DNA from: a bacterium
Lineage (GTDB): Bacteria; Vulcanimicrobiota; Vulcanimicrobiia; Vulcanimicrobiales; SCRA01
Assembly: GCA_028869325.1 (NCBI GenBank)
Contig: JAGWST010000195.1
Span: 1-5,733, forward strand
Length of the DNA: 5,733 nucleotides
Direction of reading: 5' to 3'
Shown here piece after piece: positions 1 to 5,733 of this stretch (within the stretch, counting starts at the first letter, position 1; each line of letters starts with the position of its first letter). Both the position numbers and the translations under genes were made by a program. A model generated the notes under the pieces. That model did not search any database. It saw nothing but the letters and a program-made list of their open reading frames with translations, and was not told the origin of the DNA.

Positions 1-1621
1 GGACGAAGCCCTCCTTCTTGCGGTCGATGATCTCAGCGGGAAGATAACGCCGAGCGGCGAGCTTGAGCACCGCCTTCGTGCGCCCGACGTCCACCTTCAT
101 CCGACCGGGAAGGCTGCCGGCGAACTCGATCAGCCGGTGATCCAGGAACGGCGCCCGCACCTCGAGCGAGTGGGCCATGGAGAGCCGGTCCACGTAGGTG
201 AGGACTTGATCGGGGAGCAGCGTTCGGCAGTCGACCTCCAGCGTGGCGTTCACGAGATCTCCCCGGGCATCACGGTAGAGCGGAGCCAAGAGGTCGGCGG
301 AGGATTCGATGCCGGAGTAGTCCTCGGCGAGCAAGTCGCGCTTCTGTGCGTCCGTGAACGCCGCGAAGCGCGTGCGCCAGAGATGGTCCGGCTCCTCTGC
401 CGCCCTCAGAGCAAGATCGCGCGCCTCCGCGAACGAGCCGAAGTCGGCCGCGGAGCGCGTGCCGCTGGAACGTAGATGAGCGACGACGGCGGCCATGCGG
501 TGGTCGGCGTACGAGCCGAAGAGCTCATCGGCTCCGTCGCCCGAGAGCGCGACCTTCACGTGCGCCGCGATGGCTCGCGAGAGCCAGAAGGAGGAGATCG
601 TGCCGGCGAAGGGCTCGTCGAAGGCGCGCACGACCGCCGGCAGCCCGTCGGCGATGTCGTCGATCGAGACGATGAGCTCGTGGTGCTCGGTGCCCAGCCG
701 CTGCGCCATCAGTCGCGCGAAGTCGATGTCGCTCTTGTGTGCGGGGCGATCGGCATAGCCGAGCGAGAAGGTCTTCAAGCGCGCGCCGCCCAGCTCGACC
801 ATCAGCGTGGCGATCAAGCTCGAATCGAGGCCGCCGCTGAGATAGGCGCCCACCGGAACGTCGCTCGCCAGCACCCGCAGACGGACCGCCTCGCGGAGGA
901 TCTCGATGAGGCGCTCCGCAGCCTCCTCCTCGCCGATCTCCGCTGCGCCGCCGAAGGCGGGACGCCAATACTCGCGGACCGCCAGATCGCCTTCACAGAA
1001 GACGGCCAGATGGCCCGGCGGCAGCGTACGCACGCTGGAGAAGATGGAGAGCGGGCTCGGCACGTTCTTGAAGGTCAAGTAGTGCCAAAGGGCGCGACGA
1101 TCGATCTGGCGCGAGATCCCGGCATCGGCCAACAGCGCCTTGAGCTCGGAGGCGTAGACCAAGCGCCCCGCGCGCAGGTGGTAGTAGAGGGGCTTCTTGC
1201 CGATGCGGTCCCGTGCCAGCACCACGCGCCCGCGCCGCTCGTCGCAGATGGCGAACGCGTACATACCGCGCAGCCGGTCGACCACGCTATCCCCGAAGGC
1301 CTCGTAGCCGGCGAGAACGACCTCGGTATCGCTCTGCGTGCGAAAGCGATGGCCGCGAATCTCGAGCTCCGCGCGCAGCTCGCGATAGTTGTAGATCTCG
1401 CCGTTCAGGGTCACCCAGCGGTCGCCCGCTTCGTTCGAGATGGGCTGATCGCCGGAGGCGAGATCGATGATCGAGAGGCGTCGCATCCCCTGCAGAGCCA
1501 GCGGCGATTCGTGGAGGCCCCGCTCGTCGGGCCCGCGGTGGACCAGGCGCGCATCCATCATCCGAGCGAGTGCGAGATCGCCGGCAGCGTATCTGCCCGC
1601 GACCCCGTAGATGCCGCACAT
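1..1621 (-). CDS. Glutamine-dependent asparagine synthetase-type amidotransferase (AsnB family), 3' end cut by the window edge
   Basis: Enzymes of this family hydrolyse glutamine in an N-terminal Ntn domain and pass the ammonia to a C-terminal ATP-dependent synthetase domain, which amidates aspartate or, in polysaccharide loci, sometimes a sugar acid. The frame opens with MCGIYG, so Cys2 becomes the nucleophile after Met removal. Other glutaminase motifs are HRGPDE (28-33), RLSIIDL (48-54), NGEIYNY (73-79), SDTE (97-100) and ARDRIGKKPLYY (136-147). The synthetase domain has the pyrophosphate loop SGGLDSS (262-268), FDEPFAG (334-340), SGDGADELFG (360-369) and a late conserved block LEVRAPFLDHRL (486-497). 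All catalytic motifs are therefore intact. The 540 visible residues lack perhaps 60-110 at the C-terminus compared with usual family length. The ATG is fixed by the need for Cys at position 2, and a GGGGGAG ribosome site lies just upstream. It sits 75 bp downstream of the GNAT gene on the same strand, suggesting an operon. True asparagine synthesis and sugar-acid amidation cannot be separated from sequence alone; the context favours the latter. Confidence 0.95.
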   Translation of the reverse strand, partial: MCGIYGVAGRYAAGDLALARMMDARLVHRGPDERGLHESPLALQGMRRLSIIDLASGDQPISNEAGDRWVTLNGEIYNYRELRAELEIRGHRFRTQSDTEVVLAGYEAFGDSVVDRLRGMYAFAICDERRGRVVLARDRIGKKPLYYHLRAGRLVYASELKALLADAGISRQIDRRALWHYLTFKNVPSPLSIFSSVRTLPPGHLAVFCEGDLAVREYWRPAFGGAAEIGEEEAAERLIEILREAVRLRVLASDVPVGAYLSGGLDSSLIATLMVELGGARLKTFSLGYADRPAHKSDIDFARLMAQRLGTEHHELIVSIDDIADGLPAVVRAFDEPFAGTISSFWLSRAIAAHVKVALSGDGADELFGSYADHRMAAVVAHLRSSGTRSAADFGSFAEARDLALRAAEEPDHLWRTRFAAFTDAQKRDLLAEDYSGIESSADLLAPLYRDARGDLVNATLEVDCRTLLPDQVLTYVDRLSMAHSLEVRAPFLDHRLIEFAGSLPGRMKVDVGRTKAVLKLAARRYLPAEIIDRKKEGFV

Positions 1622-1696: not shown

Positions 1697-2212
1697 TTAA
1701 CAGCTAAGCCGCGCCATGCGCCAGACGTCCTGGAATTGCCCGTCCCAGAAGGCTTCTCCGACCAGACGAGCCTCTTCGTGGTAACCCGCCTTCATCAAGG
1801 CGCGCCGCCCGCGGGGATTGCGCGCCATCACGTAGGCGAACACCTTGTGCAGCCCGAGCTGCTGGAAGGCGTAGACGGCGATGAGCGAGAGCCCCTCGCT
1901 GCCGGCGCCGCTCCCCCAGGCGGAGCGCTCGCCGATGAACGTCCGCACCTCCGCGCGACGGTGGCGGTTGTCGATGTTCCAGAGCCAGACGTTCCCGATG
2001 TAGCGCCGTGTCTCGGCGTCCTCGATGCCGAACCAGACCGCATGCTCGTTACCGATCACGCAGCGCTCGAAGAAGCGCTCGTGCTCGGGCGGGCTGACCG
2101 GCAGGACACGATCGAGCATGGCGGCGATCTCGGGGTCGTTGATCCATTCACGCCAGAGCTCCAGGTCGCTACGCTCTAAGGCCCGCAGGCGCACGCGTCT
2201 TCCGGTGATCAT
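1697..2212 (-). CDS. GNAT family N-acetyltransferase, RimJ/RimL type
   Basis: This 171-residue protein is full length for a single-domain GNAT enzyme, which moves an acetyl group from acetyl-CoA to an amine. The N-terminus (RRVRLRALERSDLELWREW, residues 5-23, then NDPEI) is typical of the RimJ/RimL branch. The acetyl-CoA pyrophosphate loop is GSGAGSE (100-106), followed by a helix and the LGLHKVFAYV strand (119-128). Asn132 and the KAGY turn (141-144) match the usual C-terminal CoA-binding half. The chosen ATG has the purine tract GAGAGGGAGG directly against it, a tight spacing; the in-frame GTG at codon 7 would remove part of the first strand and is less likely. RimJ/RimL-type enzymes occur both as protein acetyltransferases and as amino-sugar acetyltransferases such as PseH. 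With a sugar aminotransferase and an AsnB-type gene close by, a nucleotide amino sugar is the likelier substrate, but this is inference. It appears to lead a two-gene minus-strand operon. Confidence 0.9.
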   Translation of the reverse strand: MITGRRVRLRALERSDLELWREWINDPEIAAMLDRVLPVSPPEHERFFERCVIGNEHAVWFGIEDAETRRYIGNVWLWNIDNRHRRAEVRTFIGERSAWGSGAGSEGLSLIAVYAFQQLGLHKVFAYVMARNPRGRRALMKAGYHEEARLVGEAFWDGQFQDVWRMARLSC

Positions 2213-2295: not shown

Positions 2296-3027
2296 ATGGT
2301 CTCTCAGAGCCTGGCCAAACGCCTGGTGGTCTTGCAGCCGAGCTACCTGCCGTGGCTGGGCTACCTGGAGCAGATCGCCCGCGCGGATGCCTTCGTCTTC
2401 TACGACGACGTCCAATTCGACCGCCACGGCTGGCGCAATCGGAACCGGATCCGCACGGCCGGCCAGGAGGGCTGGTCTTGGCTCACCATCCCCGTGCGGC
2501 TGGAGACCGATTTCCCCTCCATTCTCGACGTCACGATCGACGCCCGAGCGCCCTGGCGCCGCAAGCACCGGCATGCGCTCCAACTGGCGTATGGCCGCGC
2601 GGGGCACCTGGAGCTGATCGAGCGCTACTTCGGTACCCTCTTCGCCGGCGACGAAGCGCGGTTGGTGGAGGTTGCCATCGAATCCGTGCGCGCTCTGGCT
2701 ACGGCCTTCGGGTTGGATACGCCCTTCTACCGCAGCTCCGAGCTGGGCATCACCGGAGATCGGAGCACGCGGCTGTTGGAGCTCTGCCGCTACTTCGGCG
2801 CCACGCGCTACCTCAGCGGCTCGGCGGCGCGCAGCTATCTGGATGTCGGGCTCTTCGAGAGCCAGGGGATCGCCGTCGAGTGGCAAGAGTACGCGCACCC
2901 GGTCTATCGCCAGTGCCACGAGCCGTTCGTCTCGCACCTCTCCGCCGTCGACGCGCTGCTCAGCCTGGGCGTCGAAGAGGCCCGCGCGCTGCTCCGGCAG
3001 GCGCCGGTCGCCTCGGGGGCGCCGTGA
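2296..3027 (+). CDS. WbqC family protein
   Basis: This 243-residue protein carries the hallmarks of the WbqC-like family, found in O-antigen and other polysaccharide loci. The opening block is LQPSYLPWLGYL (13-24), followed by FYDDVQFDRHGWRNRN (35-50) and a WLTIPV strand (62-67). LSGSAARSYLD follows at 173-183, then HPVYRQ (201-206) and a closing LSAVDALLSLG (215-225), all as expected for the family. The length is normal and there is no signal peptide or membrane span, so it is probably cytosolic. The biochemical role of the family is not firmly settled to my knowledge; transfer of an acyl or amino-acid group to an amino sugar is one proposal. The ATG lies nine residues before the first conserved strand and has only a weak AGG upstream. 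The stop overlaps the next gene's GTG start by four bases (GTGA), implying translational coupling. It is the first gene of the plus-strand group. Confidence 0.9.
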   Translation: MVSQSLAKRLVVLQPSYLPWLGYLEQIARADAFVFYDDVQFDRHGWRNRNRIRTAGQEGWSWLTIPVRLETDFPSILDVTIDARAPWRRKHRHALQLAYGRAGHLELIERYFGTLFAGDEARLVEVAIESVRALATAFGLDTPFYRSSELGITGDRSTRLLELCRYFGATRYLSGSAARSYLDVGLFESQGIAVEWQEYAHPVYRQCHEPFVSHLSAVDALLSLGVEEARALLRQAPVASGAP

Positions 3028-3407
3028 GCTCTGCCCTCGAGCGGCGTGTCGTCCTGGTGTACGACGGCACCTGCGGCTTCTGCAGGCGCGCGCTGCGTCT
3101 CTTCCTGCGCTTCGACCTGCTGCACCGGCTGGAGCTCTTCGACGGCAGCGACGCGCGGCTGGCGGAGGCGAGGTTTCCCGAGCTTGCCGGTGCCGACGTG
3201 GCGACCGCCATGTATACGATAGCCGACGGCCGGCGGTATCGCGGCTTCGACGCCTTCCGCCGCGCGATGTGGGAGAGCCCGGTACTCAAGATCGTGACCC
3301 CGCTGCTCTACGTGCCTGGCGTTCGCGCGCTGGGCGTGCGGCTCTACGACCTGGTGGCACGCAATCGCCACGCGCTGGGATGCTCCTCCGGGAGCTGCCG
3401 GCGGTGA
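3024..3407 (+). CDS. DCC/DUF393 family thiol-disulfide oxidoreductase-like protein
   Basis: Starting at the GTG that overlaps the preceding stop (GTGA), the frame gives 127 residues. The signature VLVYDGTCGFCRRAL (10-24) is the family's YDGxCxxC motif with Cys17 and Cys20 as a likely redox pair at the start of a thioredoxin-like fold. Family features continue with a YRGFDAFRRAMW segment after the central strand and a C-terminal YDLVARNRHALGC stretch. A second cysteine pair, Cys120 and Cys125, lies in the last eight residues and could be a resolving pair or a metal site. There is no signal peptide, so a cytosolic location is likely. The start is set by spacing: it lies about 12 residues before the YDG motif, and starting further upstream would mean extensive overlap with the WbqC gene. 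The stop TGA shares a base with the next ATG. Members often sit beside or fused to HTTM-type membrane proteins, as I recall. Actual oxidoreductase activity has rarely been tested. Confidence 0.9.
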   Translation: MSSALERRVVLVYDGTCGFCRRALRLFLRFDLLHRLELFDGSDARLAEARFPELAGADVATAMYTIADGRRYRGFDAFRRAMWESPVLKIVTPLLYVPGVRALGVRLYDLVARNRHALGCSSGSCRR

Positions 3408-4861
3408 TGGCCCTCTCGCCCTCCACCGAGGCCGCGTTACGCATCGCCTATGGCCTGCTGCTGGCGGCACAGCTGCTCTGGACGCTCCCGCACGCGCGCC
3501 GCTTCTTCGCGACGGAGCGCTACGGCGGCTATGCCGACTCGGGGCGGCTGGCCGACGTGTTGCAACACCCGCTGGCGGTTGCCGCCGCGATGGTGATCTG
3601 GCTGGCGGCGGCGGGCGGTATCCTCTTCGGCGTGGCCACGCTCGCCGCGGCGGCGGTGAATGTGGTGCTCTGCCGCTACTTCTTTCTCTCCACGCGCTGG
3701 CGCAGCATTCTGCGCGGCATGGGGGCGCCGGGCCACATGAGCTACTGGCTGGCCGCGCTGACGTTCTGCCTGGCGCTCTCGCGCCAGTTCGATGTGCACG
3801 GGTTCCTGCGCGCCTTGAGCGTGCTGACGTTCCGCGTCGATTTCGCGCTGATCATGATCTCCGCCGGCATCTATAAGCTGACGGCGGGATACGCTCGGAA
3901 CGAGGGCATGGAGCGCGGGCTGGTCAATCCCTGGTGGGGCTACTGGTCGCGCCTCTATGCGCAGATGCCGCCCTACTCCGCCGTCTTCTCGATGTTGAAC
4001 CACTTGGCGTATCTCACCGAGATCGGTGCCGGCGTCCTGATGCTCTCACCGGCGACCTCGCTGTGGGGCGCCGCCGCGCTGGCGGGAAGCTTCGCCTTCA
4101 TCGCGGCCAACATCCGCCTGACGTTCTTGGCCGAGATGGTCATGGCGTGCTGTCTGCTCTTCGTCAATCCCGGCGACATGGCGGATCGCCTGCTGGCGCG
4201 CTGGATCCATGCGGTCCCGCCGGCCCCGGCGGCACACGGACCCGGAGCTTGGTTCGCGCTGGGCGTCGGTGCCCTGCTCTGCGCCTATCTCGCGGCGTTG
4301 CCGCTCTCCTACGCGGGGATGTACGTCAATTTCTACGGGCGCAGACGTCTGGTGCCGCCGTTACAGCGTGCGCTGGATGGTTGGACGCGGCTCTTCGGCC
4401 TGATCATCTGGCGCGTCTTCACCATCGACGTCGTCAACTTCTACGTCGACGTCGCCGTCGAGACGCCTGGCACGGCGCTGCGCCGGCCGTACTTCCGCAT
4501 GCGGCCGTTCGATGTTGCGCGTGGCCAGCGCTACGGGCACGTGGGTGAGTTCATCTGCCTGGCGAGCATCTTCACCACGCTGAAGTACTACCCGGAGGAT
4601 CACGCGCTCTTTCGGCGCCGTCTGGTGCGCTACGCCCGCAGCGTGCCGCACGGACCGGGCGAGCGCGTCGTCTTTGCCTACATCTCCATCCTCAAGGAGC
4701 AGCGCTACGCCGAGCGCGTGGTCCGCGAGTTCACGGTCGACGCCGAGCGCGGCGAGATCGCCGAGCGTGCGATCGACGCCGCCTTCGACGTGCGCGCCGC
4801 CGGCCGGCACTCGCCCGTCCACGCGGGGTCGGTGCCCGGAAGTTACGCACCCGCCAAATAG
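3407..4861 (+). CDS. HTTM-domain (vitamin K-dependent gamma-carboxylase-like) multi-pass membrane protein
   Basis: This 484-residue integral membrane protein starts at an ATG inside the TGATG junction, so it is coupled to the DCC gene. Hydrophobic spans are visible near residues 9-27, 56-73, 75-94, 112-126, 140-158, 219-235, 238-253 and 282-302, with a further hydrophobic stretch at 329-351; 203-214 may form another. The remaining tail (about 353-484) is hydrophilic and rich in Arg and Glu. The segment at 143-158, R-x13-K-L with SAGIYKL, can be laid without gaps on the human gamma-carboxylase segment from Arg204 to Lys218 as I remember it, which puts Lys157 at the catalytic base. His110 in GHMSYW falls near the equivalent of His160. 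The later LTEIGAGVLML and ANIRLTFLAEMVM stretches also look like HTTM proteins. Vitamin K-type carboxylases use reduced quinone, O2 and CO2; what bacterial HTTM proteins do is mostly unknown. A lipase-maturation-factor relationship is the main alternative. Confidence 0.82.
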   Translation: MALSPSTEAALRIAYGLLLAAQLLWTLPHARRFFATERYGGYADSGRLADVLQHPLAVAAAMVIWLAAAGGILFGVATLAAAAVNVVLCRYFFLSTRWRSILRGMGAPGHMSYWLAALTFCLALSRQFDVHGFLRALSVLTFRVDFALIMISAGIYKLTAGYARNEGMERGLVNPWWGYWSRLYAQMPPYSAVFSMLNHLAYLTEIGAGVLMLSPATSLWGAAALAGSFAFIAANIRLTFLAEMVMACCLLFVNPGDMADRLLARWIHAVPPAPAAHGPGAWFALGVGALLCAYLAALPLSYAGMYVNFYGRRRLVPPLQRALDGWTRLFGLIIWRVFTIDVVNFYVDVAVETPGTALRRPYFRMRPFDVARGQRYGHVGEFICLASIFTTLKYYPEDHALFRRRLVRYARSVPHGPGERVVFAYISILKEQRYAERVVREFTVDAERGEIAERAIDAAFDVRAAGRHSPVHAGSVPGSYAPAK

Positions 4862-4876: not shown

Positions 4877-5733
4877 GTGAGCGAGTTTCTGCCATTTCAC
4901 CGTCCGTGGTTCGGAGACGACGAGCTTCGCCAGCTCGCCGAGGCGCTGGAGTCCGGCTGGCTGACGCGCGGCCCCAAGACGCAGCAGTTCGAAGAGGGCT
5001 TCCGCGCCTATGTGGGCGCGGCGTCGGCCGTGGGCGTGAACTCCGCCACGGCTGGCCTCCACCTCGCGCTGGTCTGTCTGGGCATCGGCCCCGGCGACGA
5101 GGTCATCACGACGCCGATCACCTACTGCGCGACCGCGAACGAGATCGAGCATGCCGGTGCCACGCCGGTCTTCGTTGACGTCGATCCGCACACGTATCTG
5201 ATCGATCCGCGGGCGATCGAAGCGGCGATCACCCCGCGAACCAAGGCGATCCTGCCCGTCCACCTCTACGGGCAGAGCTGCGATATGGATGCGATCTGCG
5301 CCCTCGCGCGCCGTCATGGCCTCAAGATCGTGGAGGACGCCGCCCATGCCATCGAGACGACGTGGCGCGACCGCAAGATCGGCACCATCGGCGACGTCAC
5401 CGTCTTCAGCTTCTATCCCACCAAGAACATCAGCACGGGTGAGGGTGGGATGCTCACCACGATGGATCAAGAGCTCGGCGCCTACGCCATGCGCATGTCG
5501 ATGCACGGCAACTCCAAGGACGCCTGGAAGCGCTACGGCTCCGGCGGCTTTGCGCACTACTCGCTGCTCGAGCGTGGCTACAAATACCACATGTTCGACC
5601 TGCTGGCCGCCATCGGGCTTGCCCAGCTGCCGAAGCTCGAGGGCTGGTGGGAGCGGCGCCGCCGCATCTGGGAGCGCTACGACGGCGCGCTGCGCGAGAT
5701 CGCGGGGATTCGCCCTGTTCCGATCACGATGCC
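4877..5733 (+). CDS. DegT/DnrJ/EryC1 family sugar aminotransferase, ArnB-like, 3' end cut by the window edge
   Basis: These are PLP-dependent enzymes that transfer an amino group, usually from glutamate, to the keto group of a nucleotide sugar. The frame starts at GTG and reads (M)SEFLPFHRP, almost the same opening as E. coli ArnB as I recall it, which fixes the start. Landmarks are SGWLTRGPK (26-34), the phosphate-binding NSATAGLH (55-62), GIGPGDEVITTP (69-80), AITPRTKAILPVHLYG (117-132), EDAAHA (153-158) with Asp154 expected to pair with the PLP ring nitrogen, and FSFYPTKN (177-184) with Lys183 as the Schiff-base lysine, followed by GEGG. GYKYHMFDLLAAIGLAQL (583-class motif of the family) follows at the 5575-5630 region. 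The 285 visible residues are intact; about 90-110 are missing. ArnB itself works on UDP-4-keto-arabinose, but no other arn gene is visible, so the substrate is open; a UDP- or dTDP-4-keto sugar is most likely. It is the fourth gene of the plus-strand group. Confidence 0.95.
   Translation, partial: MSEFLPFHRPWFGDDELRQLAEALESGWLTRGPKTQQFEEGFRAYVGAASAVGVNSATAGLHLALVCLGIGPGDEVITTPITYCATANEIEHAGATPVFVDVDPHTYLIDPRAIEAAITPRTKAILPVHLYGQSCDMDAICALARRHGLKIVEDAAHAIETTWRDRKIGTIGDVTVFSFYPTKNISTGEGGMLTTMDQELGAYAMRMSMHGNSKDAWKRYGSGGFAHYSLLERGYKYHMFDLLAAIGLAQLPKLEGWWERRRRIWERYDGALREIAGIRPVPITM

Follow-up and report, generated by a model that had tools for sequence, protein, structure and literature searches.

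A membrane protein family with a predicted, distant GGCX fold that recurs beside candidate amino-sugar genes in diverse bacteria

Human GGCX, the best described relative of the protein considered here, uses Lys218 as its established catalytic base (PMC12589487; PMC9146348); it is described as carrying this lysine side in the lumen of the endoplasmic reticulum, with M401 in contact with the quinone ring (PMC12589487). HTTM domain proteins are reported in linaridin clusters (PMC9927463). We analysed a 5,733-nucleotide stretch from a Vulcanimicrobiota genome (contig JAGWST010000195.1; the whole stretch is called the window), which encodes a membrane protein without a family name among sugar-related genes. 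The most likely reading, which we put forward tentatively, is that this GGCX-fold protein modifies an amino-sugar intermediate at a lysine-centred site on the cytoplasmic face of the membrane. Its directly supported parts are the resemblance of the modelled structure to the GGCX fold, the alignment of residue K157 with Lys218, a reversed charge bias and the recurring gene neighbours. In the open PMC literature, with subscription papers outside its scope, neither this family nor a WbqC-AsnB-HTTM link was recognised.

The predicted structure of the membrane protein (predicted local distance difference test, pLDDT, 95.4) had human GGCX as its sole significant fold match in the PDB, at ~13-15% structural identity. 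Neither the protein nor its profile had a match when searched against PDB sequences. A profile-profile alignment (hhalign) of divergent family members against varied HTTM and VKGC proteins covered residues 2-267 with a probability of 97.7 and E 1.5e-12; an earlier alignment against a narrow set of bacterial VKGC proteins (those with PF05090 + PF22777) was weak (probability 6.4, E 0.0058) and already placed K157 near the VKGC lysine. These comparisons support a distant GGCX/HTTM-fold assignment for the modelled protein. The preliminary description of this DNA had labelled the protein HTTM, and that label holds for the fold, as judged by the model and the profile-profile comparison, and fails for the family models. 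Against Pfam and NCBIfam the window protein gave no match at E<=1; PF05090 (HTTM) was unmatched in 11 of 11 family members (the window protein at E<=1, ten others at E<=10) and found nothing in the window genome, which is 82% complete. Filing the protein under PF05090 was rejected on these grounds. Viral contigs searched for relatives of the membrane protein yielded zero, and a BFVD fold search with the window model gave a single match at E<=0.001, a Yasminevirus (giant virus) protein named desaturase (E 7.9e-4).

Residue conservation was followed in an alignment of 118 sequences, made up of the window protein and 117 of the 119 listed non-self relatives (P0107 and P0113 left out; 7996 candidates were scored and the best 120 of 246 listed). 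K157 is invariant in 118/118 aligned sequences and in the 26/26 members counted from the loci described below. It aligns with K172 of L036, a VKGC from Bacteroidota, which in turn aligns with GGCX Lys218. The K172-type lysine was the lone invariant column among 20 aligned HTTM proteins, so K157 carries the hallmark of the superfamily. (These 20 came from 30 HTTM control loci after removal of G139 repeats under G149 and of loci whose reading frame was unclear.) A W335-R-V-F motif, also invariant in the family, falls on W337-R-V-M of VKGC and hence on W399-x-M401-M402 of GGCX, within a low-confidence extension of the alignment; in the structural match, the VIA end point (341 on 405) has an identical offset.

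Other parts of the GGCX site are lost. Asn159 and His160 of the glutamate pocket align with R103 and G104, in a region gapped around His160, and the ring-pocket residues Phe286, Phe294 and Phe299 align with S228, I236 and L241. Moreover, the hallmark histidine of HTTM transmembrane helix 7 is replaced by an invariant phenylalanine, F229. With both pockets lost, carboxylation of protein glutamate is unlikely; these residues speak against the gamma-carboxylase chemistry invoked in the preliminary description, as does the predicted orientation, which is opposite to that of GGCX. The loss of the ring pocket also favours a rival explanation, in which the membrane protein has no redox activity and instead serves as a transferase, carrier or scaffold, keeping an anionic sugar intermediate bound at the membrane for use by the soluble enzymes of the neighbouring genes. 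Binding of an anion would be in keeping with the invariant R97, R103 and R375, and quinone use by the membrane protein is only putative. Nevertheless, K157 and the W-R-V-F linker coincide with catalytic-site positions of GGCX and VKGC, and the fold-match lists of the predicted model contained zero transporters or transferases at E<=0.001, an absence that is weak proof. We regard this explanation as rather doubtful, if worth keeping in view.

Charge distribution sets the family apart from its relatives. The lysine-side loops carry on average 12.7 lysine plus arginine residues (K+R) per protein, compared with 1.4 on the opposite side, and the sign of this bias is the same in 118/118 aligned sequences and in 26/26 divergent locus members. 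In contrast, the sign is reversed in 30/30 VKGC proteins (7.3 on the lysine side, 16.6 opposite; L036 plus 29 of 120 listed) and in 19/19 ordinary HTTM proteins (6.5 and 15.5; loops widened by 3 residues and the C-terminus excluded). Loop borders were taken from the predicted model for the family and set by hand from sequence for the VKGC and HTTM sets. Positively charged loops face the cytoplasm under the positive-inside rule, and the lysine side of the family is therefore predicted to be cytoplasmic. Thus the membrane protein is likely inserted upside down relative to GGCX, with K157 facing the cytoplasm. The alternative is the usual orientation, in which the lysine side would be periplasmic and the substrate an exported lipid-linked glycan or a secreted protein. 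The homologue GGCX is so oriented, and the conserved arginines on the lysine side may serve catalysis instead of setting the topology. However, the side opposite the lysine holds 0.037 K/R per residue in the family versus 0.150-0.164 in HTTM and VKGC proteins, and this scarcity would be a stronger sign of inversion than the lysine-side charge. Together with the uniform sign of the bias, it leads us to consider the usual orientation unlikely.

Genome contigs were scanned with two family peptide patterns, blind to neighbours, which gave 25 loci; with the window and L072 the set numbers 27 (the window, L002-L026 and L072). Identical lengths or scores marked L027-L035, L066-L070, L071 and L093-L095 as repeats, and these were dropped; L026, a fragment, was excluded from the tree and the conservation count. 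Using profiles built from the loci themselves, we detected AsnB in 14 of the 27 loci, WbqC, DegT, GNAT and radical SAM/SPASM proteins in 10 each, a dehydratase in 9, a DCC protein in 6 and a formyltransferase in 3. A phmmer search that took the proteins of the window as queries, and so did not depend on the locus-built profiles, recovered AsnB in 12, GNAT in 9, WbqC in 8, DegT in 7 and DCC in 5 of 25 loci. Gene absences carry little weight in the window, L004, L005, L011, L023, L025 and L026, each of which is short or lies at an edge. As a control, 20 ordinary HTTM loci with flanks were taken from 10 family-bearing genomes (L054, L060, L063 and matches without a locus left out); 11 of the 20 come from 7 genomes that hold a sugar-type locus. 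All island profiles scored 0 in these regions, except for the dehydratase (2).

Fifteen of the 27 loci are sugar-type, with at least 2 island genes, the weakest being L003 (AsnB and GNAT only). By their labels they include, besides the window, Acidobacteria, Planctomycetes, Verrucomicrobia, Myxococcales and Melainabacteria, although the last label (L013) is uncertain and may stand for the window's own phylum. On the family tree, in which some forks are weak, the sugar-type label needs 3 changes, compared with an average of 8.6 in shuffles, none of which was as low (0/500), and it extends to deep branches (L020, L023). The sugar context claimed in the preliminary description is therefore borne out: the membrane gene is repeatedly accompanied by AsnB, WbqC, DegT and GNAT in distantly related taxa, and adjacency to WbqC and DegT is not limited to this genome, though 12 of the 27 loci are without island genes. 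AsnB is the nearest detected same-strand gene in 10 of the 15 sugar-type loci; the gap between the two genes is -1 to +9 bases in L004, L005, L010, L020 and L023, and in the window they are divergent.

The island shares a dehydratase-like enzyme, DegT, and GNAT or formyltransferase with 4-amino-4,6-dideoxyhexose pathways, which combine a PseC/ArnB/WecE-type aminotransferase with an acetyl- or formyltransferase. It differs in that most of its models score under cut-off and in the addition of AsnB, WbqC, radical SAM/SPASM and the GGCX-fold protein. The dehydratase is nearest to dTDP-glucose 4,6-dehydratase (334.6 bits, cut-off 365.1), the DegT proteins of L004, L007 and L012 to PseC (under cut-off), and the formyltransferase to PRK06988 and ArnA (under cut-off); DegT of L020 is over the cut-off of dTDP-4-amino-4,6-dideoxygalactose transaminase. 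In the window, the best NCBIfam models for DegT are ArnB (293.5 bits) and PseC (282.9 bits), each under cut-off, and that for GNAT is PseH (57.8 bits, cut-off 93.1). GNAT and formyltransferase never occur together among the 27 loci, which suggests that the means of N-acylation is interchangeable. Judged by these genes, the predicted product of the island is an N-acylated 4-amino sugar.

The mechanism that we favour would begin with a dTDP-glucose-dehydratase-like enzyme and DegT producing a 4-amino sugar, which GNAT, or in some loci a formyltransferase, would N-acylate. At the cytoplasmic face the membrane protein would then use K157, probably with reduced membrane quinone, to alter the sugar itself or a form of it linked to a nucleotide or lipid. 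AsnB would amidate a carboxylate of the same sugar unit, and DCC, where present, may keep the membrane-protein site or the quinone reduced. Several observations weigh against this mechanism. The lysine also occurs in HTTM proteins of unknown function and marks the superfamily, so it does not by itself demonstrate GGCX chemistry, and the loss of the ring pocket and His160 makes quinone use doubtful. Much of the charge on the lysine side belongs to conserved columns and may have a functional role; when only non-conserved columns of the loops are counted, K/R content is 0.044 per residue on the lysine side versus 0.027 opposite. Finally, because 12 of the 27 loci have no island gene, sugar modification may not be the family's general job.

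The preliminary description had centred on the DCC gene, reading its overlaps with WbqC and the membrane gene as a sign of fixed stoichiometry. The gene positions and both overlaps are as described there: WbqC and DCC share 4 bases (GTGA, 3024-3027), and DCC and the membrane gene share 1 base, the ATG at 3407 lying within TGATG (3405-3409). Bacterial operons often contain gene overlaps of 1 or 4 bases, so these ordinary sizes do not establish fixed stoichiometry, and the junction varies from -4 to +39 bases in the five other DCC loci (-1 in the window). Nor do the two proteins form a fixed pair, since DCC accompanies the membrane gene in only 6 of 15 sugar-type loci; DCC as the defining partner was rejected for this reason. 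In the account suggested by that description, DCC would be a dedicated reductant that takes the place of VKOR in a quinone-dependent carboxylation by the membrane enzyme. DCC does stand immediately upstream in 6/6 loci that have it, both cysteines of its CxxC are invariant in 23/23 aligned sequences, which fits a redox role, and some PF04134 protein is present in 16 of 17 family-bearing genomes, so that such a protein could act from elsewhere. However, 9 of 15 sugar-type loci and all 12 others have no DCC gene next to the membrane gene, and the glutamate and ring pockets are lost, which leaves this account very improbable.

Among 22 DCC relatives besides the window's own, 4 showed a hint of linkage to a listed membrane relative. 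The profiles of the membrane family and of DCC had no similarity, as expected in a comparison that cannot reveal contact, and a PDB sequence search with the window DCC gave zero matches. A VKOR match was present in 7 of the 17 family-bearing genomes, on separate contigs in those comparable (the window genome, G155, G158 and G520), and was rejected as a partner of the membrane protein given its presence in only these 7.

The genes of the window are collected in Table 1. Pfam models scored above cut-off for its WbqC, DCC, DegT, AsnB and GNAT proteins; the minus-strand AsnB and GNAT genes were absent from the preliminary description.

Table 1. Genes of the window, with positions, strand and supporting evidence
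Feature	Positions	Strand	Evidence
AsnB-type glutamine-dependent amidotransferase, starts MCG, 3' end past window	2-1621	-	TIGR01536 466.8 bits vs cut-off 267.1
GNAT acetyltransferase	1697-2212	-	PF13302 82.4 bits
WbqC-like protein	2296-3027	+	PF08889 228.6 bits, E 1.1e-67; stop TGA 3025-3027
DCC1-like thiol-disulfide oxidoreductase, CGFC, GTG start	3024-3407	+	PF04134 72.4 bits vs cut-off 27.8, E 9e-20
GGCX-fold membrane protein (predicted), family without name, 484 aa	3407-4861	+	predicted fold, profile-profile alignment, conservation
DegT/DnrJ/EryC1/StrS sugar aminotransferase, 3' end past window	4877-5731	+	PF01041 361.8 bits, E 5.5e-108

The family is sparsely distributed. Among 61 relatives the window genome alone carries it (3 congeners are without it), and in the same phylum it was found in 8 of 149 genomes, the window's own included. 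Samples from five other phyla gave 2/396, 2/343, 1/235, 1/244 and 1/240, the centre genome always being among the hits.

Further gene associations were seen across the loci. The radical SAM/SPASM family (L008:8818-9951 and relatives) is present in 10 of 27. A protein of ~365 residues, Pfam-unmatched at E<=0.001, is encoded directly 3' of the family gene at L006:2379-3473 and L007:10944-12053. Another single gene family lies 3' of the family gene at L016:11377-12480, L017:3195-4298 and L018:1577-2710; the L016 copy matches PF00962 (adenosine deaminase), and this gene overlaps the family gene by 4 bases in L016 and L017, a second operon context without sugar genes. The metagenome-assembled genome BWSM_10 holds three family copies (L002, L009, L014), none adjoining island genes. 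The most divergent member, L025:512-1849 (Bacteroidota), adjoins FemAB-like and methyltransferase genes, and its genome also holds the true VKGC-type HTTM gene L036.

A more specific chemistry can be envisaged, in which an inverted quinol/O2-driven carboxylase would add a carboxyl group to a 4-amino-sugar intermediate, AsnB would convert it into a carboxamide, and DCC would donate electrons where present. We consider this quite unlikely; if it were true, this chemistry would extend from proteins to sugars. More broadly, among the bacterial relatives of the clotting-enzyme fold, this branch, which marks a gap in Pfam and NCBIfam coverage, offers a repeated pathway context. With AsnB as a regular companion and a clear-cut prediction of its orientation, it invites a search for the substrate, the candidate being an amidated N-acyl amino sugar.
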